A DNA stretch of 64,000 nucleotides from Bifidobacterium aquikefiri. Lineage in GTDB: Bacteria; Actinomycetota; Actinomycetes; Actinomycetales; Bifidobacteriaceae. The stretch's first letter is position 1. Each line of letters starts with the position of its first letter. Positions 6,135 to 29,031 of the stretch are shown here, piece by piece. The stretch lies in assembly GCF_002259795.1 (NCBI RefSeq), contig NZ_MWXA01000007.1, forward strand, positions 1 to 64,000, written 5' to 3'. The translations under genes and the position numbers were made by a program. The notes beneath the pieces were generated by a model. That model saw only the letters and a list, made by a program, of their open reading frames with translations, did no database searches and was not told where the DNA came from.

Positions 6135-7940
6135 ATGAATGACGAAGACGTTGATCTATTGCAGGCTCCTCTGGCTCATCACGATGGTTCAGGCTGTTAT
6201 GTGAGCAACTCCCGTCCTGAACTCGGCACGGTTGTCGAAGTATCCGCCCGTTTCGCTGATTCTTTGCACGTCAAGAGTGTCTATGTGCGAGTTGTCGTCG
6301 ATGGTGAACCCCAATATAGAAAAGCCAAAGTTTCGAGGCACCACGCAGAAACCGCTGAAACATGGTGGACCGTTTCCATCGACATCATCAATACTCTGAC
6401 GAGCTATCGGTTCATGGCGCAAACGGATCGCACAACCCTTTGGCTCAATGGAGCGGGACTGCACGAACACAATATCCCCGATGCGCAAGATTTCAAATTG
6501 TCTGTTCATCATGCTCCCCATTGGGCCAAAAGCGCCGTCATCTATCAAATATTCCCCGATCGCTTCGCACGATCGAGAAGTCACCCCCTACCCCCATACC
6601 CACAGTGGGCAATTCCTGCCGAATGGGAAACCCCTGTAGCTGCCAATACACCGGATGGGGTGCACCAAGTCTATGGTGGCTCACTCTGGGGCATTACCGA
6701 AAAACTAGACTACATTCAGGGACTCGGAGCCAATACCATCTATGTGACGCCATTCTTCCCCGGACAATCGAACCATCGCTATGATGCCTCGACCTTTGAA
6801 TGTGTAGACCCATTGCTTGGTGGCAATGAAGCATTGAAAACCCTGACGGCAGCAATACATCAGCGTGGCATGCATCTGATCGGTGATTTAACGTTGAACC
6901 ATACCGGCATCAGCCATGAATGGTTCACCACCGGATTATCCCAGCCAGAAAGCCCGGAAGCGGGCTTCTATTATATTGATCGAAACCCTCCATATTCCTA
7001 TGCCTGTTTCAACGGTGCAAGCAGCCTGCCCAAACTCGATCATCGCTCCCCTCAGCTGCGTCGACGACTGTATTCGGGTTCAAATTCAGTGGTGGCCCGC
7101 TACATTCGCGATTTCGGACTTGATGGATGGCGCATTGATGTGGCTCAAGCAGCGGGAAAATACCATGATATTGACCTGGGACATCTTGTTGCCAGCGAAA
7201 CGCGGAAGACAATGGACCAGACGCGTCCAGACCTGCTCTTGATCGCAGAGCACCAATTTGATGCATCAGCCGCACTCCAAGGGGATGGATGGCAGGGCAT
7301 CATGGCCTACAGCTGGTTCACAAAACCTATCTGGGCATGGATTGGGCCATATCAAGATGGCAACAGCTGGGGCGCACCGGGAGAAGCCGAATCAATTGGC
7401 GGAAACGAGCTTGCCCAGATGATGCAGGAATATGCCTCACTGATCCCCTGGCAGTCATACATCACCAGCATGAACCTACTAGATTCGCATGATACTGCAC
7501 GTTTCCGCACGATATCCAAGGAATTTCAACCCCTTGGCATTGCTCTTCTCATGACGTTACCGGGCATTCCGTCAATCTTCTCAGGCGACGAAGTGGGCGT
7601 CGAAGGCAATAGCCTTGAAGCGGGCCGTCAACCTTTTCCCTGGGACAAACACCAATGGGATGTAAACACATATTCGCTTTACCAACAATTAATGACTCTG
7701 AGGGCCAATCATCCAGCACTGCAAGATGGAGGCATCCGTTGGTTCAACTCCGATACGAATTCGATCATCTTTGAGCGGGCTGACAACACCGAGACACTGC
7801 TCATTGAGGTCAGTCGAGCGCCTCACAAGCCCCTTATATCAACAGTCAACGGCACCGATGTATATGGAGGTACAGATCTCATCGCAGGTCGGCGAATGCC
7901 GTCCGAAGGGCCTTCCTTCCATATTTGGCAAGTGTCATAG
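6135..7940 (+). CDS. GH13 alpha-glucosidase / neopullulanase-like maltodextrin hydrolase
   Basis: About 601 residues from the ATG at 6135, which has an AGGGA sequence a few bases upstream; an in-frame TTG at 6081 would add 18 residues. An N-terminal beta-rich domain of about 120 residues resembles those of the cyclomaltodextrinase/neopullulanase/MalZ group. The GH13 barrel then starts at VIYQIFPDRFA. Catalytic residues are visible: nucleophile Asp335 in DGWRIDVAQ, acid/base Glu372 in IAEHQF, and the stabilising Asp453 in LLDSHDTARF. There is no signal peptide, so it acts in the cytoplasm on imported maltodextrins. It is transcribed away from the LacI gene and transport operon. Whether it is a glucosidase, neopullulanase or cyclomaltodextrinase cannot be told from sequence. 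Confidence 0.9.
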   Translation: MNDEDVDLLQAPLAHHDGSGCYVSNSRPELGTVVEVSARFADSLHVKSVYVRVVVDGEPQYRKAKVSRHHAETAETWWTVSIDIINTLTSYRFMAQTDRTTLWLNGAGLHEHNIPDAQDFKLSVHHAPHWAKSAVIYQIFPDRFARSRSHPLPPYPQWAIPAEWETPVAANTPDGVHQVYGGSLWGITEKLDYIQGLGANTIYVTPFFPGQSNHRYDASTFECVDPLLGGNEALKTLTAAIHQRGMHLIGDLTLNHTGISHEWFTTGLSQPESPEAGFYYIDRNPPYSYACFNGASSLPKLDHRSPQLRRRLYSGSNSVVARYIRDFGLDGWRIDVAQAAGKYHDIDLGHLVASETRKTMDQTRPDLLLIAEHQFDASAALQGDGWQGIMAYSWFTKPIWAWIGPYQDGNSWGAPGEAESIGGNELAQMMQEYASLIPWQSYITSMNLLDSHDTARFRTISKEFQPLGIALLMTLPGIPSIFSGDEVGVEGNSLEAGRQPFPWDKHQWDVNTYSLYQQLMTLRANHPALQDGGIRWFNSDTNSIIFERADNTETLLIEVSRAPHKPLISTVNGTDVYGGTDLIAGRRMPSEGPSFHIWQVS

Positions 7941-13100: not shown

Positions 13101-13974
13101 TGGGAGTGATGCTTGACGTAAGGCTGACATCGTCACCCTGATGTATGTTCGTTCGAATCCACTTGCCTCCGGCGCTCGGCGAATCAGACGCAAGCAGCCC
13201 GTACGTGTCTGAAGGAAGCTTGTCGACGTGATCTGCGGTTGTTATGGAAGTGACGTGAATCGTCTTGCCGTTGTCGCTTGAAGTCCCCAAGACAATGAGG
13301 CGGGTACCTCCAAGATACTGCGATGAGATTGCTCCGGTATGCGGCGTAATCTCGGTTATGCCATCTCCCTGGGCATCTGACTCCCATCCAATTGAGGTCA
13401 ATGCGTGGGTCGCACTACCGTCAGCGATCGTTCCCGAGAACCGTTGAGTGTCGAAAGTCACTTTCCCATCACTGGTCACGCCAAAACTGGCATCATAGGA
13501 GTTTTTGGGGCTTTTGTAGATTTCTCCATTGATAATCTCGCCATCGGTAGGTTCGCCAGAGGCATTGATGCTGAAGTATCCGCCGTTGATGCCCGCTACT
13601 GCGCCGGAGCGGTTTGCCATTGATGAAATCGTCTCATCGCTGGAATTCACCACCTCGTCGCCCGCTCCGACGACTCCAAGCTTGACGTTGGAGCTCGAAA
13701 GGTCGCTGTCCAGCTCTTCAACGGGCTGCTTTCCCTGCACGGAGTTAACATCCTCAGACGAATAATGCACGCCTGAGGTCACGTCATACGACGATGTGCT
13801 TTGTCTGCTTGCTATCTGTGGCCAGCCGTCGATCTGCGCAACGCCGCTGCTGGAATCTGCAGCCTGAGCATACGAGGGAATAAAGAGAAGAGGAAGAAGG
13901 AAACAGGACGTGGTTACTATCGCAATGTGTCTCATGGCATGCATGCGATGATTTTTTTGCTGTAATATTCGCAC
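10138..13974 (-). CDS. Wall-anchored phosphodiester glycosidase / metallophosphoesterase fusion
   Basis: A 1278-residue surface protein. Domains in order: signal peptide (about 1-38, ending SYAQA); a phosphodiester glycosidase domain (NAGPA family, about 80-420) with NGGYFSIN and the signature VQLDGGGSTEMVA; a bacterial Ig-like (Big_2) segment at about 430-600; a beta-sandwich region; a calcineurin-type metallophosphoesterase at about 830-1060 with GDMPDDGE, GNHED, GIHMPAYDP and YGHARG; another Big_2 repeat at about 1085-1175; a Pro/Ser/Thr linker; and a C-terminal sortase signal LSKTG, a membrane helix and KIRRIQK. Known family members cleave sugar-phosphate phosphodiesters. Joined to a phosphatase, it could strip and then dephosphorylate phosphoglycans at the cell surface; that is inference. 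The start is uncertain: GTG at 13974, or ATG at 13944 or 13935. Confidence 0.85.
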   Translation of the reverse strand: MRILQQKNHRMHAMRHIAIVTTSCFLLPLLFIPSYAQAADSSSGVAQIDGWPQIASRQSTSSYDVTSGVHYSSEDVNSVQGKQPVEELDSDLSSSNVKLGVVGAGDEVVNSSDETISSMANRSGAVAGINGGYFSINASGEPTDGEIINGEIYKSPKNSYDASFGVTSDGKVTFDTQRFSGTIADGSATHALTSIGWESDAQGDGITEITPHTGAISSQYLGGTRLIVLGTSSDNGKTIHVTSITTADHVDKLPSDTYGLLASDSPSAGGKWIRTNIHQGDDVSLTSSITPNAGIQQLVEASYRIIANGKANTDSAGVSTGNTDIVPRTAIGTTEDGHLIMATFDGHQTNSNALGVTMAQVTSYMLSKGVTNAVQLDGGGSTEMVARKTGNTTVSVMNTPSDGQERPVTNGIFLYSTAPANGRSQAAHINSDKAVSTALGATVPVDVYASDSAGNATTKDQPRVTVSPASLGTWSNNEFTAKGVGTGTITARIGDAVASVSLTVTSKYDALTINPDDLDVVNGGSGTLSVIGKNGTTTTTLDAKSATWKVADPTLGSISQTGVFTGAADGSGLATVTATVGTQTATTQVAVGTAHETAATADDPSAWSLSYYGGATGDAAYTADATDTPSSQKQSIRLSYDMPSSSGVHQLVMWPKNTVTIDKNGEGVTPTSITVWAKIDDPVHSAFEVCISFIQANGQKTNEYVSNLTYGKWAPITVQIPSGSSLPVTFNFVDLLSIRPSAESKGTIHLGYVTGDYSPRPASAYAYSGIASNPEWLKFDEDSSDFKSGGTTYLMGDDAHLLASDTKSASAVNLEHIAERVAGKSYTTDSGQTVEPLSSTATPTQVQMLGDMPDDGELKDLQYAQSLVANIGLPYHDLVGNHEDTQGTLSEADNFAQVFGDTHYMYRTGKSTFIAVDNSHGGVTSSDKYQSPSLANGQYPWLQQQLESSSTPVVIVGIHMPAYDPFPAQNSEFSDRWEAQQFLQLVQNYQNAHPDKHVMIVYGHARGFSEQLLNPEGQSVTWPSGIPQFTFADLGMPAYSTPDQGGFYHFGLVHVNDDGSVEFSVEPLLSSLAIDQGTAAATAADGQSSTVKVVDSTKSDTLETGQTKQYSATGIAQQGDNGNPAISLHIADPVSHVWASSNPTIASVDAKSGLVTAHKAGTVSISITTGGITASSDLVVTAAPSNDSGHSSGSTTKPGNPAEGVPDNEAENSKTHPIVNEKGTATSQRAAKSVAKPVSKTAQSELSKTGSDVSQIAVALMVTLALGLTILKIRRIQK

Positions 13975-17776: not shown

Positions 17777-18284
17777 ATACAAATACATGAAAAGCCCAGG
17801 CAGCAGTCCTTGAAAGCTCGAACACATTACGAGCGGCACATGCCGTTGTGGGCTTCTTTCCATACATTTACGCAGAGCAACGATAGTCCCACCAATGCTG
17901 CGGGAGCGATTCACAGACTTGCTATCAGTTCTCCTTGGGAACACAGACAAGGCTGCATGCAACAGACGCTGTCAGCCCGGCATATGCTCAATTATCATGG
18001 ACTTATATTGTTGACACCCTTATACAACCACCAAGCTGCAGCTTGCTGAACTCTTTTGCGACTCGGGTCAAGTCTGTAAATATCCTAGGCAACTCAAACA
18101 GGATAACAATCTCAAGCGGTGCTTTGCCAAAGCGAGAGACTACTCGATCAAACTTGAATCAGCTCCGCTTTTTCACACATAGTGGCATATGACCTCAAGC
18201 ACTTGAAAAAGGAGCAAGCCGCTATACACGTAACACTATGTTTACTGACGAAGCTATATTCAGAAACTTTTGATGATTTATATC
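17777..18284. other. Intergenic region, no gene seen
   Basis: About 500 bases with only short frames of no recognisable content. It ends in the regulatory region of the importer operon. Confidence 0.5.
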
Positions 18285-18319
18285 ATTCATATGAATAGAT
18301 TATGAATTATCTCATTCAT
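18285..18319. promoter_or_regulatory. RpiR-type operator upstream of the amino-acid-type importer
   Basis: ATTCATATGAAT at 18285-18296 is followed by ATGAAT-TATCTC-ATTCAT at 18302-18319, a perfect 6-6-6 inverted repeat. The same ATGAAT-N6-ATTCAT pattern occurs twice ahead of the amidohydrolase operon at 24648-24694. The RpiR gene lies between the two sites, so it is the likely binder. Confidence 0.65.
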
Positions 18320-18357
18320 GCACGATATCCATTGAAGAGCGAACTTGGGAGATATAG

Positions 18358-19116
18358 ATGAAGAATAAGTTTGTCGCAATAGTTGCAGCTTCGCTGGCAG
18401 CCATCACAATGCTTGGTGGCTGCGGTGCCGGGTCGGCAGATTCGACAGCCGCCGGGAACAGCACATTGACAGTGGGGACCGATGCCACATTTCAACCCTT
18501 CGAGTATCAAGAGGGCGGAAATTACAAGGGGTTCGACATAGACCTGGTACAGGCCCTTGCCAAGAAGCTCGGATATAGCAAAGTTCAATTCGTAAACACT
18601 GAATTCAAAGGATTGATTCCTGGGTTGCTTTCGAAGAAATTCGACATGGTGGCATCAGCTGTATACATTACCGACGAAAGAAAGCAGCAAATCGATTTCA
18701 GCGACCCCTATTATCCTGGTGGCCTTTCAATCATGATTCCCAGCGACGACACAACCATTTCCAAGGGCAGTGACCTTGCCGGCAAAACCGTTGTGGTTCA
18801 GACAGGGACCAAATCCGTTGAATGGCTCAAGGCCAATGTCCCCACTGCAAAAATAGTGGAAGTTGAGAGCAACAACGAAATGTTTCTCCAAGTGTCAAGC
18901 GGCAAGGCAGATGCTGCCGTCACAGGTAAACCAGCAGCGGAATCTTATGCAAAAACTGACCCCAAGGTCAAAGTAGTAGAACAAACATTGACAACGGAAG
19001 AATATGGTTTCGGATTCCGGAAAAATGATTCTGCTTTGAAAAATAAGATCAACGGTGCTTTGAAAGAGCTGAAGAGCAATGGCACATATGACAAGATCAA
19101 AAGTGAATACTTCTAG
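18358..19116 (+). CDS. Amino-acid-type ABC transporter binding lipoprotein
   Basis: A 252-residue family 3 solute-binding protein. The signal peptide ends in lipobox LGGC, with the lipidated cysteine at residue 22. The mature start TLTVGTDATFQPFEYQEGG and the GFDIDLVQALAKKLGY segment are hallmarks of polar amino acid/glutamine-type binding proteins. GGGAG before the ATG is a ribosome binding site. It is the first gene of a three-gene importer operon. Because the regulator and two amidohydrolases follow, the ligand is more likely an N-modified glutamate than a plain amino acid; this is inference. Confidence 0.9.
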   Translation: MKNKFVAIVAASLAAITMLGGCGAGSADSTAAGNSTLTVGTDATFQPFEYQEGGNYKGFDIDLVQALAKKLGYSKVQFVNTEFKGLIPGLLSKKFDMVASAVYITDERKQQIDFSDPYYPGGLSIMIPSDDTTISKGSDLAGKTVVVQTGTKSVEWLKANVPTAKIVEVESNNEMFLQVSSGKADAAVTGKPAAESYAKTDPKVKVVEQTLTTEEYGFGFRKNDSALKNKINGALKELKSNGTYDKIKSEYF

Positions 19117-19210
19117 GAGAAGATTTGCAACTTTCAAGTTCATCACTGCCGACTTGAAAGTTGCAAACGGAATTTCACACTTTCGAACACACAGAGGCGA
19201 AAGGTAAGAG

Positions 19211-19882
19211 ATGCTCGATTTCAATGCTTTGTTCAATGGCACTACATGGTTTATGCTCCTTGGCGGCTTAAAATACACGATATTGTATACTCTGGCAGGC
19301 TTTGTCATATCCTTGTTAATCGGTTTCGTGATTGCCCAATGCCAGTTATCGAAGAATCTTATCCTGAACAAACTGGCATGGCTCTATCTTCTTTGGTTCA
19401 GAAGCACTCCGCTGCTCATTCAACTCGTCCTCATGTTCTACGGTTTGCCCATACTCTTCAATATTGAGACTGATGCTTGGGTCGTCGGAGTCATATCTAT
19501 GGGATTGTATTCGGGATCATATGTATCTCAAATCATGCGTGGTGCCATTATTTCCATCGATCGTGGACAGATGGAAGCTGGCCGATCTCTTGGATACAGC
19601 AATCTGCAGGTAATGCTCAAGATCATCTTGCCTCAGGCCGTTCGGCGAGCGATTGCACCCCTCACCAATGAATTCATCTCCCTGACCAAGAATTCTTCGT
19701 TGTTGTCGGTTATCACCGTTGTTGAGTTATTTAGAGAGGCAGATGTTGTGATTTCAACAAACTATAAGACTTTGGAAGTCTATCTCATCGCCGCAGTAAT
19801 GTACTTCGTTTTGAACAATCTCATTGGCTGGCTCGGAATAAGGCTAGAGAAGCTTACGAAGACTGGGGAGGAACTGGCATGA
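19211..19882 (+). CDS. Amino-acid-type ABC transporter permease
   Basis: A 223-residue His/Glu/Gln/Arg-family permease with about five membrane helices and the EAA-type loop GQMEAGRSLGYSNLQVMLKI near residue 120. It ends with the usual IILPQAVRRAIAPLTNEFI region. A single permease gene suggests a homodimeric channel. Its stop overlaps the next gene's ATG by four bases (19879-19882). Confidence 0.92.
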   Translation: MLDFNALFNGTTWFMLLGGLKYTILYTLAGFVISLLIGFVIAQCQLSKNLILNKLAWLYLLWFRSTPLLIQLVLMFYGLPILFNIETDAWVVGVISMGLYSGSYVSQIMRGAIISIDRGQMEAGRSLGYSNLQVMLKIILPQAVRRAIAPLTNEFISLTKNSSLLSVITVVELFREADVVISTNYKTLEVYLIAAVMYFVLNNLIGWLGIRLEKLTKTGEELA

Positions 19883-20637
19883 TTAGTATTTCTGCGTTGC
19901 ATAAATATTTTGGTTCAAACCATGTGCTCAATAACATCAACTTGGAAATTCAAGATGGTGAGGTGGTGGTAATCATAGGACCATCCGGATCTGGAAAATC
20001 AACCTTGTTGCGTTGTATAAACTATCTTGAGACCTTTACACAGGGATCCATCAGAATACATGGTGAAGAGGTAGGACCGCAATCTCAAGATGGCAAGATG
20101 ACCCGTCTTGATGAAAAGAGACTGAATGCATTACGCCAGGGGTTGGGAATGGTGTTTCAAGGCTTTAACCTTTTTCCACACAAAAGTGTCCTCGATAACA
20201 TCATGATGGCACCGATTGACCTCCAACATCTATCTCGCACGGAGGCAAAGACCCGTGCAATGAAGCTATTGCAGCAGGTTGATCTTCAAGATAAGGCGGA
20301 AGCAATGCCTGCAAGCCTTTCAGGAGGCCAGAAGCAACGCATTGCCATTGCCCGGGCACTGGCAATGGAGCCTCAAGTGATGTTGTTCGATGAGCCGACA
20401 TCGGCTCTCGATCCGGAAATGGTCGGGGAAGTCCTGAAAGTCATGGAGAAGCTCGCCAAAACAGGCATGACCATGATTGTTGTCACCCACGAAATGAACT
20501 TTGCCAGACATATTGCAGATAAGGTCTGCTTTATGGAGCATGGCCAAATAATTGACAGTGGCGCTCCTGAAGATATATTTAGTCGTAGCAATGATTCAAG
20601 AGTAGGAAAATTCGTAAATAAGCTGGAACAGCAATAG
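19879..20637 (+). CDS. Amino-acid-type ABC transporter ATP-binding protein
   Basis: A 252-residue ATPase of the GlnQ type. Walker A is GPSGSGKST, the Q-loop lies in MVFQGFNLFPH, the signature is LSGGQKQRIAIARAL, Walker B is VMLFDEPTSALDP and the switch histidine is in VVTHEM. It energises the importer encoded by the two preceding genes and is translationally coupled to the permease. Confidence 0.95.
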   Translation: MISISALHKYFGSNHVLNNINLEIQDGEVVVIIGPSGSGKSTLLRCINYLETFTQGSIRIHGEEVGPQSQDGKMTRLDEKRLNALRQGLGMVFQGFNLFPHKSVLDNIMMAPIDLQHLSRTEAKTRAMKLLQQVDLQDKAEAMPASLSGGQKQRIAIARALAMEPQVMLFDEPTSALDPEMVGEVLKVMEKLAKTGMTMIVVTHEMNFARHIADKVCFMEHGQIIDSGAPEDIFSRSNDSRVGKFVNKLEQQ

Positions 20638-20710
20638 CGAATTGACTCATAACTTCGCGGTAATGCTCAGGTACTACTGCCATGTAGATTGAGCATCAAG
20701 AAAGGCTTTT

Positions 20711-21682
20711 ATGACACAAAAAGTTGAAGAGCTTGCCTTAACGCCCTCACAACCCATGCAGCTTTCTTCTCTCGACGACCTTTTCGCTTGCCTCGTCAAA
20801 GCAGCCGAGAGCTCTCCAACCGCCCGAAAAGTCGCGACATGCATTGAAAAGAATTATTCAGAAATTGTGTTTATGACCGCGGCTGAAGTGGCATCGCGAG
20901 CTGGTGTCTCACAGGGAAGCGTGTCTAGGTTCTGTATGCTATTGGGTTTCGCTGGCTACAACAACTTTCAGCGAAACCTTCAGCATATACACGGTATCGG
21001 TCTCACCGCACCAGAAAGACTGGAACGCATTTCGCAACAGAATGAAAACAATCCAGCTTCAGCAACCCAACCGCGAGATTCGGGCCACCAGCAGAACGCC
21101 GCAAGTTCGGTCAAAGCAATAAGACACAGATCGTTACTCCAAGAAGATATCAATGCGATCAATCAACTGCAGCCTATCTTTGCACAAAAGCAATACAACA
21201 AGCTTGTCGAGTCTCTCGCAGCATACCCACATATAATTTTGACATCAGCAAGAATTTCGGCAACCTTGCTTCCCTATTTTGCTTACACACTCAATAAAAT
21301 CCGTACTGGTATCCAGATGACCCTGCCCGGCGCCCAGGAATGGGAGCTTATGGACTTGAACAATCCGAAAGACACCCTTGTCGTCACTACTGTATTCCCC
21401 AGATATTCAGAAACTCTCATGAGAAAATTAGAGCAGCTCCATCAACGCGGTTTTACCATTATCGCATTGACTGATTCAAGGCTATCCCCCATTGTAAAGC
21501 TAAGCGATGAGTCAATAATTCTCCCGGTGAATATGACCTCAGCGTTTGACGATTATGCGGCACTTGCAGCATTCTTCAGCATCGTTTTGGAAGATTGCGC
21601 AGCAAAAATCACAAATCTCTCCCAACGCATAGAACTCATCAATGAATTGGAAGCAGAAAACAAGACATATCGAAACAGATGA
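20711..21682 (+). CDS. RpiR/MurR-family transcriptional regulator
   Basis: A 323-residue protein. Residues about 25-100 form the HTH_6 domain, with AAEVASRAGVSQGSVSRFCM as the recognition region. Residues about 150-310 are a SIS domain, which in this family binds phosphosugars or other small ligands. The linker contains a Gln/Asn/Ser-rich stretch. It lies 73 bases after the importer ATPase on the same strand and converges with the amidohydrolase operon. Matching inverted repeats upstream of both operons make it the presumed local regulator. An amino acid derivative as ligand would be unusual but not unprecedented in the family. Confidence 0.9.
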   Translation: MTQKVEELALTPSQPMQLSSLDDLFACLVKAAESSPTARKVATCIEKNYSEIVFMTAAEVASRAGVSQGSVSRFCMLLGFAGYNNFQRNLQHIHGIGLTAPERLERISQQNENNPASATQPRDSGHQQNAASSVKAIRHRSLLQEDINAINQLQPIFAQKQYNKLVESLAAYPHIILTSARISATLLPYFAYTLNKIRTGIQMTLPGAQEWELMDLNNPKDTLVVTTVFPRYSETLMRKLEQLHQRGFTIIALTDSRLSPIVKLSDESIILPVNMTSAFDDYAALAAFFSIVLEDCAAKITNLSQRIELINELEAENKTYRNR

Positions 21683-21689
21683 TCCAATC

Positions 21690-23099
21690 TCAGTTTCGTA
21701 TGATTTCAGAAATGTTTGCAATGTCCCTGGCTGCGCTGATTCCACTACTGTGTCGCTTGTTCTGAACGATTTGTCGCCCATTTATGACGACATCGCTGAC
21801 ATCCTCACCCACAGCGGTAATTGGAACGCTCTCAGGGCTAGATCCTGCTGTGCGAAGCGACTCCATATCAATAGCTATAAAATCTGCATTGTATCCTTCA
21901 CGCAGCAATCCGGAACGTTTCCAACCACAGGCTGCCTGGCCAACAGCCGTCAAATTATTCAAAAGCTCTTCGGGACTAAAAGCATCACGGTTCCCAGAAG
22001 CCAGACGCTCATGCGCATCCAACAGCCTTATCTCCTCAAATGGGTCTATACACACACATTCATCCGAACCAACACACAGAGGAATGCCATGTTCCTGAAA
22101 CATTCTTGCAGGGCCAATCCCATCGGCCAGATCTGCCTCAGTGGTTGGGCACATAGCCACACTTGAGCCCGATGCTTCTAAGATGCTTATATCGTTGTGT
22201 TCCATATGCGTCGCATGTACGGCAACGGATTCAGGTCCCCAAAAACCCGCCTGATTCAGTAGCTGCGTTGGGGTCATGCCGGTATATTTTCGGCAGGATT
22301 CGTTCTCTGCAATCTGTTCAGAAAGATGGACATGCAGAGGATGCCCCTTCCCTGATTGAGCCCAGGCTGTCACTGCAGCTATCTCTTCGAGGGTGCATGC
22401 ACGAACGGAATGTACAGCTGCGCCAATTTGTATTGTCGGATAGTCTCGTGAAACAATTTCATCATCAAGAGCTTCTGCCCGCTCTTGCCATTGTGCAACC
22501 GATCCGTCACCGAAGCGCTTCTGGTAACGGCCAAGTGAAGACCCTTCTACATCAGCGTGCAGATAGCATGCATCAAGTAGAGTCAATCGAATACCAGAGT
22601 CAAGTGCCGCCTGAATGAGCGCTTTTCCAAAGATATTTGGATCTTCGTATGGAGACCCATCACTGTGATGGTGAATGTAATGAAATTCTGCCACAGTTGT
22701 ATAGCCATGCATGACCATTTCCGTGTATACCGCCCGCGCAAAGCAATAGTACAACTCTGGGGTGAGCCCATGAGCGACGTGATACATCGTCTCTCTCCAC
22801 TTCCAAAACGTTCCACCCTCCTTTCCTAAGCCGCGCAGAGCACGATGGAAGGTATGAGCATGACAATTCGCAGCACCGGGGATGACCATTCCATGAAGTG
22901 CAATATCTTCGGCTCTTTTGGGGACATTGCACTCAATTTTTGCGATCACCCCTTCCTGAACGATAATTCTGGTCGAACTTCTGACTTTATTGTCTTTCCA
23001 CACACAGGGAGCCCAGTATGCAAGCTGACTAGGTTGCATAGGTACATGGCGATTGAAAGGAAAACGCTGTGAAACGAAAATTTCATTATTCTCTGTCAT
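21690..23099 (-). CDS. Formiminoglutamate deiminase-like amidohydrolase (HutF type)
   Basis: A 469-residue amidohydrolase-superfamily enzyme. Zinc ligands are visible: His-x-His in GAANCHAHTFHRAL, His in HPLHVHLSEQ, His in VAVHATHMEH and Asp in CVGSDECV. The segments EFHYIHH, GAAVHSVRACTLEEI and MCPTTEADLADG match HutF, which converts N-formimino-L-glutamate to N-formyl-L-glutamate and ammonia. Other histidine degradation genes (hutH, hutU, hutI) are absent here, so the substrate would be imported or come from elsewhere. The ATG overlaps the stop of the upstream M20 gene (ATGA at 23096-23099). Related deaminases are a possible alternative, but the HutF match is specific. Confidence 0.8.
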   Translation of the reverse strand: MTENNEIFVSQRFPFNRHVPMQPSQLAYWAPCVWKDNKVRSSTRIIVQEGVIAKIECNVPKRAEDIALHGMVIPGAANCHAHTFHRALRGLGKEGGTFWKWRETMYHVAHGLTPELYYCFARAVYTEMVMHGYTTVAEFHYIHHHSDGSPYEDPNIFGKALIQAALDSGIRLTLLDACYLHADVEGSSLGRYQKRFGDGSVAQWQERAEALDDEIVSRDYPTIQIGAAVHSVRACTLEEIAAVTAWAQSGKGHPLHVHLSEQIAENESCRKYTGMTPTQLLNQAGFWGPESVAVHATHMEHNDISILEASGSSVAMCPTTEADLADGIGPARMFQEHGIPLCVGSDECVCIDPFEEIRLLDAHERLASGNRDAFSPEELLNNLTAVGQAACGWKRSGLLREGYNADFIAIDMESLRTAGSSPESVPITAVGEDVSDVVINGRQIVQNKRHSSGISAARDIANISEIIRN

Positions 23100-24625
23100 C
23101 TGGCTGCTCCCATTCCGTTATCTCCTCGAATGCATCGTTTTGAAAAATCTTTGATTATTCCCATGTAGGCTCGCACTCCATATGCACAATCTTCGGGCGT
23201 CGCAAATTCAATGGGGGTATGCGAAGCACCACTAAAGTTCCGCACAAAAATCATCCCCGCCTGTACGCCTGCTTCTGCCAGAATTGCAGCATCATGCCCG
23301 GCAGCACTGCTGATGGTGGGAGGAATCACATGCCGAACGTTCTTCCGATTGCCAGAACCATATACCGATGCAGCTACCGAATTTACTAATGATTGTCGAA
23401 TCGCATCCGGAAAAGTTGTTGATCGCGTCCATGATTCCTGAGTAATGTCACAGTCATATGGAAGGTCGCCAGCATCTGGCTCCCCATGCACGGCAATTGG
23501 ATACGCATCGAATTCGCCAGACTTCGCAAGATCTCGAACCTCCTGCATCAGCCCCTTCACATCCCGCTCCAATTGGCCTCGGCAATCAATCCATGCAGTA
23601 ATTCTTGAAGGAATCACGTTCACACCATTCGGCTGAACTATGACTTTACCAATGGTCGCTCTCACTTTTCTTCGTTTCGAAATATCTTGGACATCCAATA
23701 CCAGTTTTGCAAAAGCGATCATCGGATTACGACGCTCCATCATAGGCGTGGTTCCAGCATGGTTGGCTTCTCCATGCATCACAATGCACCACCGGCCATG
23801 TGGCCATATTCCTTCTGCCACCGCGATGGGAGCATTCAAGTTTCGCTGATCGCAACCCTGTTCGATATGAAGCTCCGTATGAGAGAAAATCGATTGCTTA
23901 AAGGCAATGAGCCTATCTGCATCATAGTCATCGAGATGGGGCTCAGGAGCAGCCGACTTATTGATAGCATCCGTGATTTCCTGATCGCTGAAAGTTCCCA
24001 AGGCTCTTGAATGCGATGCCATTCTTTTGACGCTCCCCAGTTTCGACTTGAATTTCTGAAGAGCTTGCGCATAATTCAGCCCCTGCCTGTCTCTCATGGA
24101 TATAGCTTGTTCCCATGTCAGTAGTCCCATTTTCATGCGAGAGCCGAAGCAAGCTATGGCAAAGCGCCCACCTTCTTCATCATGAAAGTTCGCAATGCCA
24201 AGTGGACATTCAGGTTTCCATCCTTCCTCGCTTAAGAGATCGAAAGCGACAATGGCGCTCAACACCCCTAAAGGCCCGTCGAATGCTCCTCCATCAGGAA
24301 CTGAGTCCATATGAGAACCAAGAGAGATGCCGCGATTCTGTGGAGTCGGGACACCGCCAATCCATGCCCATTGATTTCCTGCTTCGTCCACTGAAACCTT
24401 GAAACCCCTTCGATTCATCTGTGCTGCAAACCATGTGCGCAGCCATGCTTCCTGATCGGTCCACGCCAATCTGTTATACGGCGTGGGATGATAATGATCT
24501 TTACCAGGAGTATGGCCAATATCATCGATTGACCAGAATAAATCTCCCAGCATTTGTGCAATCCGCAGATTCCTTTCATCATTCATTGACAGGTCTTGCG
24601 TCGTCCAGAAACTAGGCAAATGCAC
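23096..24625 (-). CDS. M20-family amidohydrolase (N-carbamoyl/N-acyl amino acid or allantoate type)
   Basis: About 509 residues from the GTG at 24625, chosen because a perfect AGGAGG lies 7 bases before it. It resembles the AllC/hydantoinase-carbamoylase group. Metal-binding features are SLGSHMDSVPDGGAFDG, FHDEEGGRF, HTELHIEQG, the dimer-bridging GEANHAGTTPM and the late SHTP histidine. At about 100 residues longer than usual relatives (about 410), it carries extra sequence around residues 155-230. In this operon a plausible role is hydrolysing the N-formylglutamate made by the HutF-like enzyme, a job usually done by HutG, to give glutamate. The family is known for ureido and N-carbamoyl substrates, so this is inference. 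Confidence 0.75.
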   Translation of the reverse strand: MHLPSFWTTQDLSMNDERNLRIAQMLGDLFWSIDDIGHTPGKDHYHPTPYNRLAWTDQEAWLRTWFAAQMNRRGFKVSVDEAGNQWAWIGGVPTPQNRGISLGSHMDSVPDGGAFDGPLGVLSAIVAFDLLSEEGWKPECPLGIANFHDEEGGRFAIACFGSRMKMGLLTWEQAISMRDRQGLNYAQALQKFKSKLGSVKRMASHSRALGTFSDQEITDAINKSAAPEPHLDDYDADRLIAFKQSIFSHTELHIEQGCDQRNLNAPIAVAEGIWPHGRWCIVMHGEANHAGTTPMMERRNPMIAFAKLVLDVQDISKRRKVRATIGKVIVQPNGVNVIPSRITAWIDCRGQLERDVKGLMQEVRDLAKSGEFDAYPIAVHGEPDAGDLPYDCDITQESWTRSTTFPDAIRQSLVNSVAASVYGSGNRKNVRHVIPPTISSAAGHDAAILAEAGVQAGMIFVRNFSGASHTPIEFATPEDCAYGVRAYMGIIKDFSKRCIRGDNGMGAAR

Positions 24626-24647
24626 CAGTGAACCTCCTGAAGCCAAA

Positions 24648-24694
24648 ATGAATTGTTATATTCATATTATTATAGTTTGAATTGTTTCATTCAT
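24648..24694. promoter_or_regulatory. Double RpiR-type operator upstream of the amidohydrolase operon
   Basis: Two inverted repeats: ATGAAT-TGTTAT-ATTCAT at 24648-24665 and TTGAAT-TGTTTC-ATTCAT at 24677-24694, with centres 29 bp apart. They match the site at 18302-18319 in arm sequence and spacing. They lie 23 to 70 bases before the GTG start, where a repressor would block transcription. Confidence 0.65.
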
Positions 24695-25251
24695 ATATAT
24701 GCATGTGTCAGTTGGTATCATTGCTATCGATATTTCTTTGAAGCTGGAAACGCCGACACGCAAGGCAACGGCATACTGAACGCTGCCGATGCCTTTAACC
24801 CTGGATTTGGACAAGAGACCTCGCCCAAGAACTCATCGGGCAATACGGCATTGGTTGCGAATGATGGCGGCATGACACATTCGGATGATCCTGCGACGCA
24901 CGGCGAGCATTCGGGAGCATACGACATAAACAGGGTCAAACCCCTTTTGCCCATAACCCAAACATTGGGGCTTAGGGCATGGAAAAGGGCTTTGAGACAA
25001 AGCTCAAAGCTCCTGCGGACGGGGCGAGATTCGACGAGGAAGCCTGAGAGGGCTTGAAAACATTAGCGTTTTATAAAATCATCAAAATCTCACACCACTG
25101 TTCACGCTATTAGGGAAACCATTACATGAGCCTTTATGTGCATGATACAGCGCAATTTACAGCAGGACGCGCATCACAGGGTTTGGGTTGTTTCGCCAAG
25201 TTCTCGATTGCACGCAGCATGTCTATAACATTGCATCTTAATTATGATGAC
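24695..25251. other. Remnant-rich intergenic region at the left edge of the mobile element
   Basis: No intact gene. An open frame here (about 24653-25057) has no start signal and runs into the tRNA-derived repeat at 24978-25034; it may be a decayed gene fragment. The rest up to the relaxase remnant is non-coding. Confidence 0.5.
24978..25034. repeat. Partial copy of the tRNA-Ser 3' end plus terminator, putative att site
   Basis: About 57 bases match the 3' end of tRNA-Ser(UGA) and its terminator at 28910-28967, with one mismatch and one indel, then diverge inside the T-arm. Weaker similarity extends further left (about 24947; TTGCCCATAACCCA versus TTGCCTATAACCCC). This is the expected scar on the far side of an element that integrated into the tRNA gene. 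A decayed tRNA duplicate is the alternative. Confidence 0.65.
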
Positions 25252-27270: not shown

Positions 27271-28167
27271 CTACTTTGCCCAGCCGCTCTCGCTCGGGCT
27301 GTTGATTTCTCCGGATTCATATCCGATATCGAATACGTCAGTGGTCGATTGCGCGTCCGGTTCCGGCACATCTTTGTGTGTGCGCAGCTCAGGAAGAGAT
27401 ATTGACGGGTCGAAGAGCGTGGCCGTTTCGAAGGCTCGCAACGGCTGCATCGTACGCAACTGGCGGCTGCTCGCGTTTGCTAGAGCCAGTGCGTCGCGCA
27501 GATAGGTTGCGTGCTGCTCGAACGGTCGGTTGTCTACGTCGAAGCCAAGAAATCTGAGATATTGGATGGCAAACACGGCGCAGGTGCGTGTGTTGCCTTC
27601 CCTGAACGGATGTATCTGCCATATGCCGCTGATGAACGAGAACACGCCATCGGCTGTCGCTTTGTCGCCCATATCCGCGTAAGCGTCGAGCTGTCTGCGT
27701 TCCTGTGCGAAATCGTAGTCAAGGGTTGCCTCGATGTTCCCATAATCCGAGTACGATACCGATGCGCCATTGAGAACCGGCTCGCTCTTGGTGATGTTCA
27801 CACTGCGCCATACGCCCACCCATTCCGCATTGAATACACCTTCGAACAGGCGCTTATGAATGCCCTGCAACGCTCCCGGTGATAGCGCAAATGTTCGTGT
27901 TTGCAACATCGCGCTGATGCGCTGGGCTACCAGGTCGGCCTCGCGGTGTGGTTCCTGACCGGGATTGTTCTGATGATATTCACGCAGTTGCTGCGATGCC
28001 TGTGCATATGAGATGCGTCCGTCGATGTGCTCCTGCGCCACTTCGACCGCATATCGTGATGGTGTCAAACCATCGGTCTGCTGGAGACCGAAGCCGACTT
28101 TCCAGCCATATTCACGTGATGCCTTATCGCCTTCACCACTGACGACTTGGTATTCATCATCCGTCAT
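27271..28167 (-). CDS. Fic-domain protein (probable AMP transferase toxin)
   Basis: A 298-residue protein. The Fic core motif HPFREGNTR lies at about residues 177-185, matching H-x-F-x-(D/E)-G-N-x-R, although the usual second Gly of GNGR is replaced by Thr. Fic enzymes transfer AMP or other phosphate-linked groups to target proteins. The N-terminal 60 residues form a helical region (GLTPSRYAVEVAQEHIDGRI) of the sort seen ahead of mobile-element Fic domains; I cannot see a clear inhibitory antitoxin motif in it. AGGGAG before the ATG supports the start. It lies between the MobC-like gene and the unknown membrane protein, in the tRNA-Ser-linked element. Confidence 0.88.
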   Translation of the reverse strand: MTDDEYQVVSGEGDKASREYGWKVGFGLQQTDGLTPSRYAVEVAQEHIDGRISYAQASQQLREYHQNNPGQEPHREADLVAQRISAMLQTRTFALSPGALQGIHKRLFEGVFNAEWVGVWRSVNITKSEPVLNGASVSYSDYGNIEATLDYDFAQERRQLDAYADMGDKATADGVFSFISGIWQIHPFREGNTRTCAVFAIQYLRFLGFDVDNRPFEQHATYLRDALALANASSRQLRTMQPLRAFETATLFDPSISLPELRTHKDVPEPDAQSTTDVFDIGYESGEINSPSESGWAK

Positions 28168-28270: not shown

Positions 28271-28564
28271 TTAGCTTACGTGATCCAGTATTTGTTGCTG
28301 GCGGTCGAGGTGTTTTTCAATACGTTTGCCTGCTTGGTAGGCGCTGCTTTCGTCTTCGATGCTGGCGTTCATGTCGCGGTTGACGTTGTGCGCGATCTGG
28401 TTGACGTTGTGTCCTATGCGCCAGATTTCAGTGCGGATGCGTCGCAGTTCCACGACGGTTGGGGACTCATCTTCCACATCTTCTTCGTGAATCATTCCCG
28501 CTTCTCGACTTACCAGTTCGAGTATGAGACGCAACGTCTTGCATAGCGGAATAGGCGAACGCAT
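28271..28564 (-). CDS. MobC-like mobilization protein, probably shortened
   Basis: A 97-residue protein with VVELRRIRTEIWRIGHNVNQ followed by IAHNVN, matching the conserved core of MobC relaxosome accessory proteins. These help the relaxase open DNA at oriT. Intact MobC proteins are usually longer at the N-terminus, and no clear ribosome binding site precedes the ATG at 28564. A palindromic repeat (28602-28666) abuts this end, so the 5' part may be lost. Its usual partner, the relaxase, is found only as a distant remnant at 25252-25569, with the Fic and membrane genes in between. Confidence 0.65.
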   Translation of the reverse strand: MRSPIPLCKTLRLILELVSREAGMIHEEDVEDESPTVVELRRIRTEIWRIGHNVNQIAHNVNRDMNASIEDESSAYQAGKRIEKHLDRQQQILDHVS

Positions 28565-28570
28565 GGTGCT

Positions 28571-28680
28571 CAGGTTGTGCTTTTGCAGTCAGTTTTTCTC
28601 CAGGTTGTGTTGGAAAGTCGCTTCTCACTTGAGTTTGCTCGAAAAGCGACTTTCCAAGCACAACCTGCGCAGTATACGCA
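28571..28680. repeat. Palindromic repeat, copy 1 (near tRNA-Ser UGA)
   Basis: A 22-bp left arm at 28602-28623 (AGGTTGTGTTGGAAAGTCGC...) pairs with 28644-28666 (one extra base). The flanking 30 bases on the left also match those of the copy at 48010-48118, including CAG-TTG, CTTTTG and TCAGTTTT segments. Both copies lie on the 3' side of a tRNA-Ser gene. Confidence 0.6.
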
Positions 28681-28700
28681 ACATGCAGCAGATAACGACC

Positions 28701-28894
28701 GGACACACTTTCTGCCTATAACCCCGGCATCGCTGAGGTGAGATCTCTCGACTCCGCTACGCTCCGCTCGAGATGACGGGGAAAAATGCCGCTCGAGATG
28801 ACGGGGGGGGAATGCCGCTCGAAATGACGGGGACACACTTTTTTGCCTATAACCCCCGGGGTTGAGGGGCGAAGCTCGGATTGCCTATAACCCC
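28701..28894. repeat. Degenerate repeat block with TCGAGATGACGG units and TTGCCTATAACCCC units
   Basis: GGACACACTTTCTGCCTATA at 28701 recurs at 28831, and TTGCCTATAACCCC recurs at 28881. Between them lie one long arm of the family at 56937 (GAGATCTCTCGACTCCGCTA...) and further tandem units of the type CCGCTCGAGATGACGG. No coding sequence. Confidence 0.65.
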
Positions 28895-28909: not shown

Positions 28910-28944
28910 CATGGAAAAAGGGCTTTGAGACAAAGCTCAAAGCC
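28910..28944 (-). terminator. Terminator of tRNA-Ser(UGA)
   Basis: GGGCTTTGAG ... CTCAAAGCCC stem followed by TTTTTCC on the minus strand, directly downstream of the tRNA. It is part of the sequence duplicated at 24978-25034. Confidence 0.8.
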
Positions 28945-28948
28945 CCTG

Positions 28949-29031
28949 CGGACGGGGCGAGATTCGAACTCGCGGAACTTACGTTCAACGGTTTTCAAGA
29001 CCGTCTCTTTCGACCGCTCAGACACCCGTCC
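28949..29031 (-). tRNA. tRNA-Ser(UGA)
   Basis: The minus strand folds as a class II tRNA: acceptor GGACGGG (29025-29031) with CCCGTCC (28950-28956), anticodon stem ACGGT/ACCGT with loop CTTGAAA giving anticodon TGA, a long variable arm, and T-arm GAGTTCGAATCTC. CCA is not encoded. It lies about 130 bases downstream of serS, so the tRNA and its synthetase gene are adjacent on the same strand. Confidence 0.95.

Follow-up and report, generated by a model that had tools for sequence, protein, structure and literature searches.

What would a bacterium without urocanase do with a formimidoylglutamate deiminase, encoded side by side with an amino-acid-type importer? An island of six genes raises this question in the window, by which we mean the whole stretch of 64,000 nucleotides of DNA that was analyzed. 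N-Formiminoglutamate (FIGLU) is a product of histidine breakdown and is excreted by mammals short of folate. An earlier note on this DNA, made from the sequence alone, had proposed that the island serves to scavenge FIGLU or a similar N-substituted glutamate from other organisms, with an M20 amidohydrolase in place of HutG.

Gene content and layout of the island

The open reading frames of the window show six intact genes in two convergent units spanning positions 18274-24693. The unit on the plus strand encodes a binding lipoprotein, a permease, an ATPase and an RpiR-type regulator, in this order, and the unit on the minus strand encodes an M20 amidohydrolase and HutF; the ends of the RpiR and HutF genes are separated by 7 bases. 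The features are as follows.

18274..18318, no strand: predicted operator pair preceding the importer unit, TGATTTATATCATTCA and TGAATTATCTCATTCA
18358..19116, plus strand: solute-binding lipoprotein (SBP) of family 3; R108 is kept, Y103 and G190 replace the usual Thr/Ser and Asp
19211..19882, plus strand: polar amino acid ABC permease (BPD_transp_1)
19879..20637, plus strand: ABC transporter ATPase (ABC_tran), overlapping the permease gene by 4 bases
20711..21682, plus strand: RpiR-type regulator (HTH_6 and SIS), member of the importer unit
21690..23099, minus strand: HutF, formimidoylglutamate deiminase family, convergent to the RpiR gene
23096..24625 (longest frame to 24646), minus strand: M20 amidohydrolase of the hut-linked actinobacterial type, overlapping the HutF gene by 4 bases
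24649..24693, no strand: predicted operator pair upstream of M20-HutF, TGAATTGTTATATTCA and TGAATTGTTTCATTCA

In a Pfam scan of the island proteins, SBP_bac_3, BPD_transp_1, ABC_tran and HTH_6 with SIS all exceeded their cut-offs, RpiR scoring 41 bits with PF01418 and 44 bits with PF01380. Taken together, the Pfam and curated-model scans confirmed the importer, RpiR, HutF-like and M20 families read by eye in the earlier note. Its description of the island as one compact unit has to be modified: the six frames are intact, but they form two convergent units instead of one operon. The G+C content of the island is 46.9%, compared with 51.8% for the window and 50.9% and 49.1% for the flanks.

Absence of the upstream histidine pathway

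The genome from which the window was taken (G000; 2.41 Mb in 18 contigs, 99.7% complete) gave no match to urocanase (HutU, PF01175), to the ammonia-lyase family of HutH (PF00221) or to classical HutG (PF05013) in searches of the whole genome, and no HutI was seen beside the island among the open reading frames of the window. The absence of hutH, hutU and HutG that had been noted earlier thus holds genome-wide, and a hut system in the sense of HutH plus HutU is not present in G000. Full hut genes elsewhere in the genome under the same regulator had been named as evidence that would refute the scavenging proposal; the HutH, HutU and HutG families gave no match. The bearer of the island seems unable to degrade histidine itself.

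Possession of HutF without urocanase is rare within the class. Among 394 class genomes, with HutF counted at E <= 1e-80, HutF was found in 186, urocanase in 256 and both in 181, so that five of the 186 HutF-bearing genomes have no urocanase: G000, three genomes that are 75-80% complete (G248, G296 and G441) and one that is 100% complete (G419). The G419 HutF lies at 860-2227 on the minus strand of a 5.3-kb contig (L112), where its neighbor resembles, by eye, a NADH dehydrogenase gene. There is no M20 match on this contig and no urocanase match in the G419 genome. Since this complete genome has HutF without M20 on the contig, HutF can stand without an M20 partner.

A second island in the family and the history of the locus

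Our sample of the family comprised 189 genomes in 16 genera. HutF above the cut-off was found in three of them (G000, G138 with two copies, and G142), and M20 above the cut-off in the same three, always adjoining HutF; none of the 26 other genomes of the genus to which the window belongs had a HutF match at E <= 1e-30. A contig search with HutF yielded two remote matches only, with 25-26% identity, and no named relative of the island. Urocanase is present in two of the 189 genomes, and the hut clusters of two family genomes are located at L046 7312-17948, with a HutH-like gene nearby, and at L047 4851-12189.

G138, which belongs to another genus of the family, possesses an island with the same gene order and strands (L045 7010-13219) and carries a hut cluster besides. 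The importer proteins of the two islands are 71% (SBP), 80% (permease) and 69% (ATPase) identical, and the regulator and enzymes 44% (RpiR), 51% (HutF) and 47% (M20). In G142 and in one of the G138 copies, the order is M20-HutF-HutI-HutU. The G138 hut cluster contains HutU above the cut-off, HutI marginally under it (297.5 vs 298.15) and, on the opposite strand, a HutH-like gene scoring 188 against a cut-off of 524, and HutH gave no match in the hut stretch of G142.

A 64-nt direct repeat with 98% identity flanks the G138 island (L045 6646-6709 and 13394-13457). The repeats at 6646-6709 and 13394-13503 are built of shorter CCTAAGTCA-type units and possibly represent a recombination site. In the window, the left neighbor of the island is an SDR gene. 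Its counterpart in G005 is 89% identical and is separated from the same tRNA-Ser by about 8 kb containing other genes. The 13-16 kb past tRNA-Ser in five other compared genomes share nothing with the left part of the window, except for weak ATPase matches in three. The region beyond tRNA-Ser is a variable site, and the island was likely acquired by transfer.

To the right of the island lies a 52-nt direct repeat (24983-25034 and 28916-28967, 98% identity), the right copy of which spans the last 20 nt of tRNA-Ser (28948-29031, minus strand) and bases beyond. The two copies look like att-type ends of a 3.9-kb insert that carries a membrane protein and a Fic-domain protein (27271-28167, minus strand, motif HPFREGNTR); by eye, no integrase was seen among its frames of at least 100 amino acids. 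We considered integrase-borne transfer of the island via the tRNA-Ser repeats and set it aside, because these repeats bound the neighboring 3.9 kb and not the island. The stretch 28559-28833 beside tRNA-Ser, with three 18-nt tandem copies, has similar places on contigs C1, C13, C14 and C15 of G000 and is a member of an interspersed repeat family.

HutF is predicted to deiminate FIGLU

HutF scored 518 bits with NF006681 (cut-off 362) and 396.6 bits with TIGR02022, slightly below the cut-off of 413.05. As a reference for the active site we used the Pseudomonas aeruginosa enzyme (PaHutF), whose zinc ligands we take to be H56, H58, H232 and D320 in the numbering of the structure. E235 and H269 are presumably catalytic, and R82, Y121, H206 and R209 presumably contact the substrate. 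The letters found in the alignment at these position numbers fit. The protein of the window retains 10 of the 11 active-site positions of PaHutF (H56, H58, R82, Y121, H206, R209, H232, E235, H269 and D320). The remaining one, Q61, is replaced by His, both in the window and throughout the 47 class rows that could be read, those from hut clusters included (47 of 50 rows were used and three dropped). Conservation of these residues argues for the same substrate, and HutF is very probably a FIGLU deiminase.

The HutFs of the two islands are 51.0% identical to each other, and the HutF of the window is 51.6% identical to the one in the G138 hut cluster. That the island enzymes are no closer mutually than to a hut-cluster enzyme speaks against a FIGLU scavenging module. 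In the HutF tree, island and hut-cluster copies are not resolved from each other: the four family copies group together at a fork that is not strong (81/87), and the rows of the window and of the G138 island are compositionally odd.

The M20 amidohydrolase probably takes the place of HutG

The M20 protein (PF01546) scored 390 bits with the hut-linked model NF006770 (cut-off 372), retains the metal-site motifs in our alignment (from which L066 was left out at a contig edge, and in which L073 is covered in part) and adjoins HutF; by score, motifs and position, it is a hut-linked M20. With the model of the N-carbamyl-L-glutamate hydrolase ErtE, it reached 222 bits, below the cut-off of 520. A second M20-type hydrolase of G000 (L054, contig C11 96402-97571) scored 250 bits, below the hut-linked cut-off of 372 bits. 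The longest M20 frame of the island opens with TTG at 24646, two bases short of the operator at 24649. A GTG at 24625 follows AGGAGG by 7 nt and is within 1-2 residues of where the G138 relative begins; because the TTG almost touches the operator, this GTG is probably the start.

The pairing of HutF with M20 turned out not to be a specific feature of the island. We carried out the comparison of HutF neighborhoods across actinobacteria that had been proposed with the original reading, and M20 adjoined HutF in 50 of the 51 class loci examined, G419 being the exception. Twenty of the loci (L060-L079) are not a random sample: they were hand-picked among the matches listed so as to cover a spread of families. 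In this set M20 was beside HutF in 20/20 loci, HutI was present in 16 and HutU in 14 of the stretches, and the genomes of the four loci without HutI (G391, G335, G242 and G293) each have urocanase elsewhere. The other 30 loci (L015-L044) were the best-scoring ones and all come from one large genus; M20 was beside HutF in every one, and HutI was found in 29. Among actinobacteria it is thus normal to find an M20 in the position of HutG. Matches of at least 60 bits to the island SBP or permease were found in 0/20 of the spread loci within the stretches examined; one of these loci had a short RpiR match (62 bits), and several had ATPase matches. What is new here is not the pair itself, but that it stands apart from the hut pathway and is coupled to an importer and operator of its own.

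We assume that the island M20 belongs to COG0624, a COG covered in a study by Gerdes and co-workers. In the table of this study, COG0624 appears in the SEED histidine degradation subsystem with the prediction of an alternative N-formylglutamate deformylase; the same table marks this prediction as invalidated, since a COG0624 protein from Streptomyces avermitilis had no deformylase activity, in a line that names neither the protein nor the metal nor the conditions (PMC3223725). The earlier proposal that M20 replaces HutG is borne out in its genomic part, with no HutG in the genome and M20 beside HutF; the idea of a deformylase already existed in SEED and is listed in that table as invalidated. 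Of the evidence against the second enzymatic step, this negative test weighs most; on the strength of gene position and motifs, deformylation of N-formyl-L-glutamate is nevertheless the likely reaction of M20.

The binding protein has lost the residue that holds the free amine

In family-3 amino acid binding proteins, such as the glutamine-binding protein, an Arg holds the alpha-carboxylate and an Asp holds the alpha-amine of the ligand. The SBP of the window retains the Arg (R108 in SAVYITDER; SAIYITPER in the SBP of the G138 island). At the position of the amine-binding Asp both island SBPs read VTGKP, with Gly190 in the window. This position is Asp in all 28 non-island family SBPs that we fetched and read out of 46 non-island matches listed, as well as in the solved relatives GlnH, AncQR, AncCDT-1 and domain 2 of GlnPQ; it is Glu in domain 1 of GlnPQ. 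In addition, Tyr103 replaces the usual Thr/Ser two residues past a conserved Gly/Ala. The SBP is thus a member of the SBP_bac_3 fold family that does not have the Arg-plus-Asp clamp for free alpha-amino acids. With a formimino-substituted amine, the Asp would not be needed in the pocket, and FIGLU is probably the ligand of the importer.

Predicted operator pairs precede both units

The importer unit is preceded by TGATTTATATCATTCA at 18274-18289, with one mismatch, and TGAATTATCTCATTCA at 18303-18318, which is exact; the M20-HutF unit is preceded by TGAATTGTTATATTCA at 24649-24664 and TGAATTGTTTCATTCA at 24678-24693, both exact copies of TGAATN6ATTCA. In either pair the starts are 29 bp apart. 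The window contains three exact copies of TGAATN6ATTCA (0.15 expected), all of them within the two upstream regions, and nine if one mismatch is allowed (3.9 expected; this number was attained in 4 of 100 shuffles). Of the extended 18-bp form, ATGAATN6ATTCAT, the 2.41 Mb of G000 contain two exact sites, one preceding each unit, and of its reversed control pattern none. With one mismatch there are 21 sites in G000: the two partners in the island and 19 elsewhere. Of the other genomes, G138 has one exact 18-bp site, located before the island importer, G016 has two, and G142 and G005 have none.

On L045, which carries the G138 island, TGAATN6ATTCA is found once exactly (8/200 shuffles reach 1) and four times with at most one mismatch (0/200 shuffles). 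Operator-like pairs with starts 29 bp apart lie upstream of all four units of both islands; those on L045 start at 6940/6969 and 13285/13314, the site at 6940 carrying two mismatches, in a scan that allowed three mismatches and listed three weaker sites as well. The operator-like pairs place both units under a common regulator, presumably RpiR. Regulators of the RpiR/SIS type mostly sense phosphosugars. This habit is a point against the proposed FIGLU module, as are the 19 one-mismatch sites elsewhere in G000, the nine shorter sites of the window where 3.9 would be expected, and the two mismatches in one paired site of the G138 island.

Proposed function and alternatives

To summarize, we propose, with rather more confidence than doubt for the pathway as a whole, that the island is a module for scavenging extracellular N-formimino-L-glutamate. 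The lipoprotein would capture FIGLU, with the Arg gripping the alpha-carboxylate and no demand for a free alpha-amine, and the permease and ATPase would import it. HutF would convert FIGLU to N-formyl-L-glutamate and ammonia, and M20 would cleave N-formyl-L-glutamate to glutamate and formate, both units being controlled, via paired operators of the ATGAATN6ATTCAT type, by RpiR, whose gene belongs to the importer unit. We infer the ligand, the M20 activity, the binding of RpiR to the operators and the nutritional role, and our estimates for HutF, M20 and the ligand depend on one another. FIGLU as the likely substrate, suggested in the earlier note, gains support from the HutF residues, the altered SBP pocket and the shared predicted operator, and uptake from outside from the importer with the changed pocket and the island copy in G138. 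The scavenging pathway proposed there hence keeps its protein families, the missing hut genes, FIGLU and uptake; it is corrected in that HutF plus M20 is the usual pair of actinobacteria, and its deformylase step has a negative precedent.

The substrate could instead be another N-substituted glutamate (N-formyl-, N-carbamoyl- or N-acetylglutamate), with the importer and M20 as the core and HutF broadening the range of substrates. Loss of the amine-binding Asp would suit any N-acyl glutamate, M20 does reach 222 bits with the ErtE model, albeit under the cut-off of 520, and in P. aeruginosa growth on N-acetylglutamate was affected by a transporter whose gene adjoins one for a homologue of formiminoglutamate hydrolase (PMC2542419). 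However, an importer of acyl-glutamates would have no need of HutF, which retains the presumed formiminoglutamate-binding residues, and the HutF-M20 pair belongs to hut clusters; we consider this explanation unlikely. Slightly less probable still is a role of M20 other than deformylation, such as hydrolyzing FIGLU directly or cleaving a ureido by-product, with another enzyme handling N-formylglutamate. The negative result with the S. avermitilis protein of the same COG in the table cited above and the complete genome G419, with HutF but no M20 on a short contig, favor such a role, whereas the presence of M20 beside HutF in nearly all class loci, the retained metal-site motifs and the lack of classical HutG in G000 argue against it, and the published line is silent on protein and metal.

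It is also conceivable that the island is the remnant of a decayed histidine pathway, i.e. a hut cluster that lost hutHUI and came to lie next to an unrelated importer by chance, as M20-HutF-HutI-HutU clusters do exist in the family members G138 and G142. Against this, none of the six frames is broken, G000 has no exact copy of the 18-bp operator outside the island, and G138, which itself has a hut cluster, repeats the arrangement with similarly spaced operator pairs. Decay is therefore highly improbable.

Returning to FIGLU scavenging, there is about an even chance that the island represents a transferable module, in which HutF and M20 are joined to a dedicated importer with an altered pocket and to a private RpiR regulon, that it feeds on FIGLU released by hosts or microbes, and that its transporter is the first genetically defined FIGLU importer. 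No published description of such a module was found among titles and the portions of open-access PMC literature on formiminoglutamate, hut genes and bifidobacteria that were covered. If true, a microbe that lives on FIGLU while unable to catabolize histidine itself would be a cross-feeding link, and its uptake of FIGLU a cross-feeding step in histidine catabolism. Moreover, the island makes it testable which enzyme deformylates in actinobacterial histidine degradation, where M20 beside HutF at 50 of 51 loci examined stands against a negative test of one member of its COG.

Comparison with known systems

The subunits of the importer belong to the same families as those of GlnHPQ-type importers for glutamine and polar amino acids, but in the island SBP the amine-binding Asp is replaced by Gly and the usual Thr/Ser by Tyr. 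The hutFCHUIG genes of P. aeruginosa (PMC12772324) share the logic of FIGLU conversion to formylglutamate and glutamate; in contrast to them, the island has M20 for HutG, no upstream enzymes and a different regulator family. Corynebacterial hut clusters end with formimidoylglutamase (EC 3.5.3.8) instead (PMC3350403). A partial precedent for a transporter adjoining an enzyme for N-substituted glutamate is the PA3175/PA3176 operon of P. aeruginosa, which encodes a putative regulator, a formiminoglutamate hydrolase homologue and a transporter whose loss affected the use of N-acetylglutamate (PMC2542419). There the transporter is a predicted glutamate transporter and the reported phenotype concerns N-acetylglutamate, whereas the island has an ABC importer. 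The closest systems are the actinobacterial hut clusters (HutH, HutU, M20, HutF, HutI), with the same adjacent HutF and M20 families and the same residues at the compared sites; in a genome with no HutU or PF00221 match and no HutI adjacent, the island adds to this pair an importer and an RpiR regulator.
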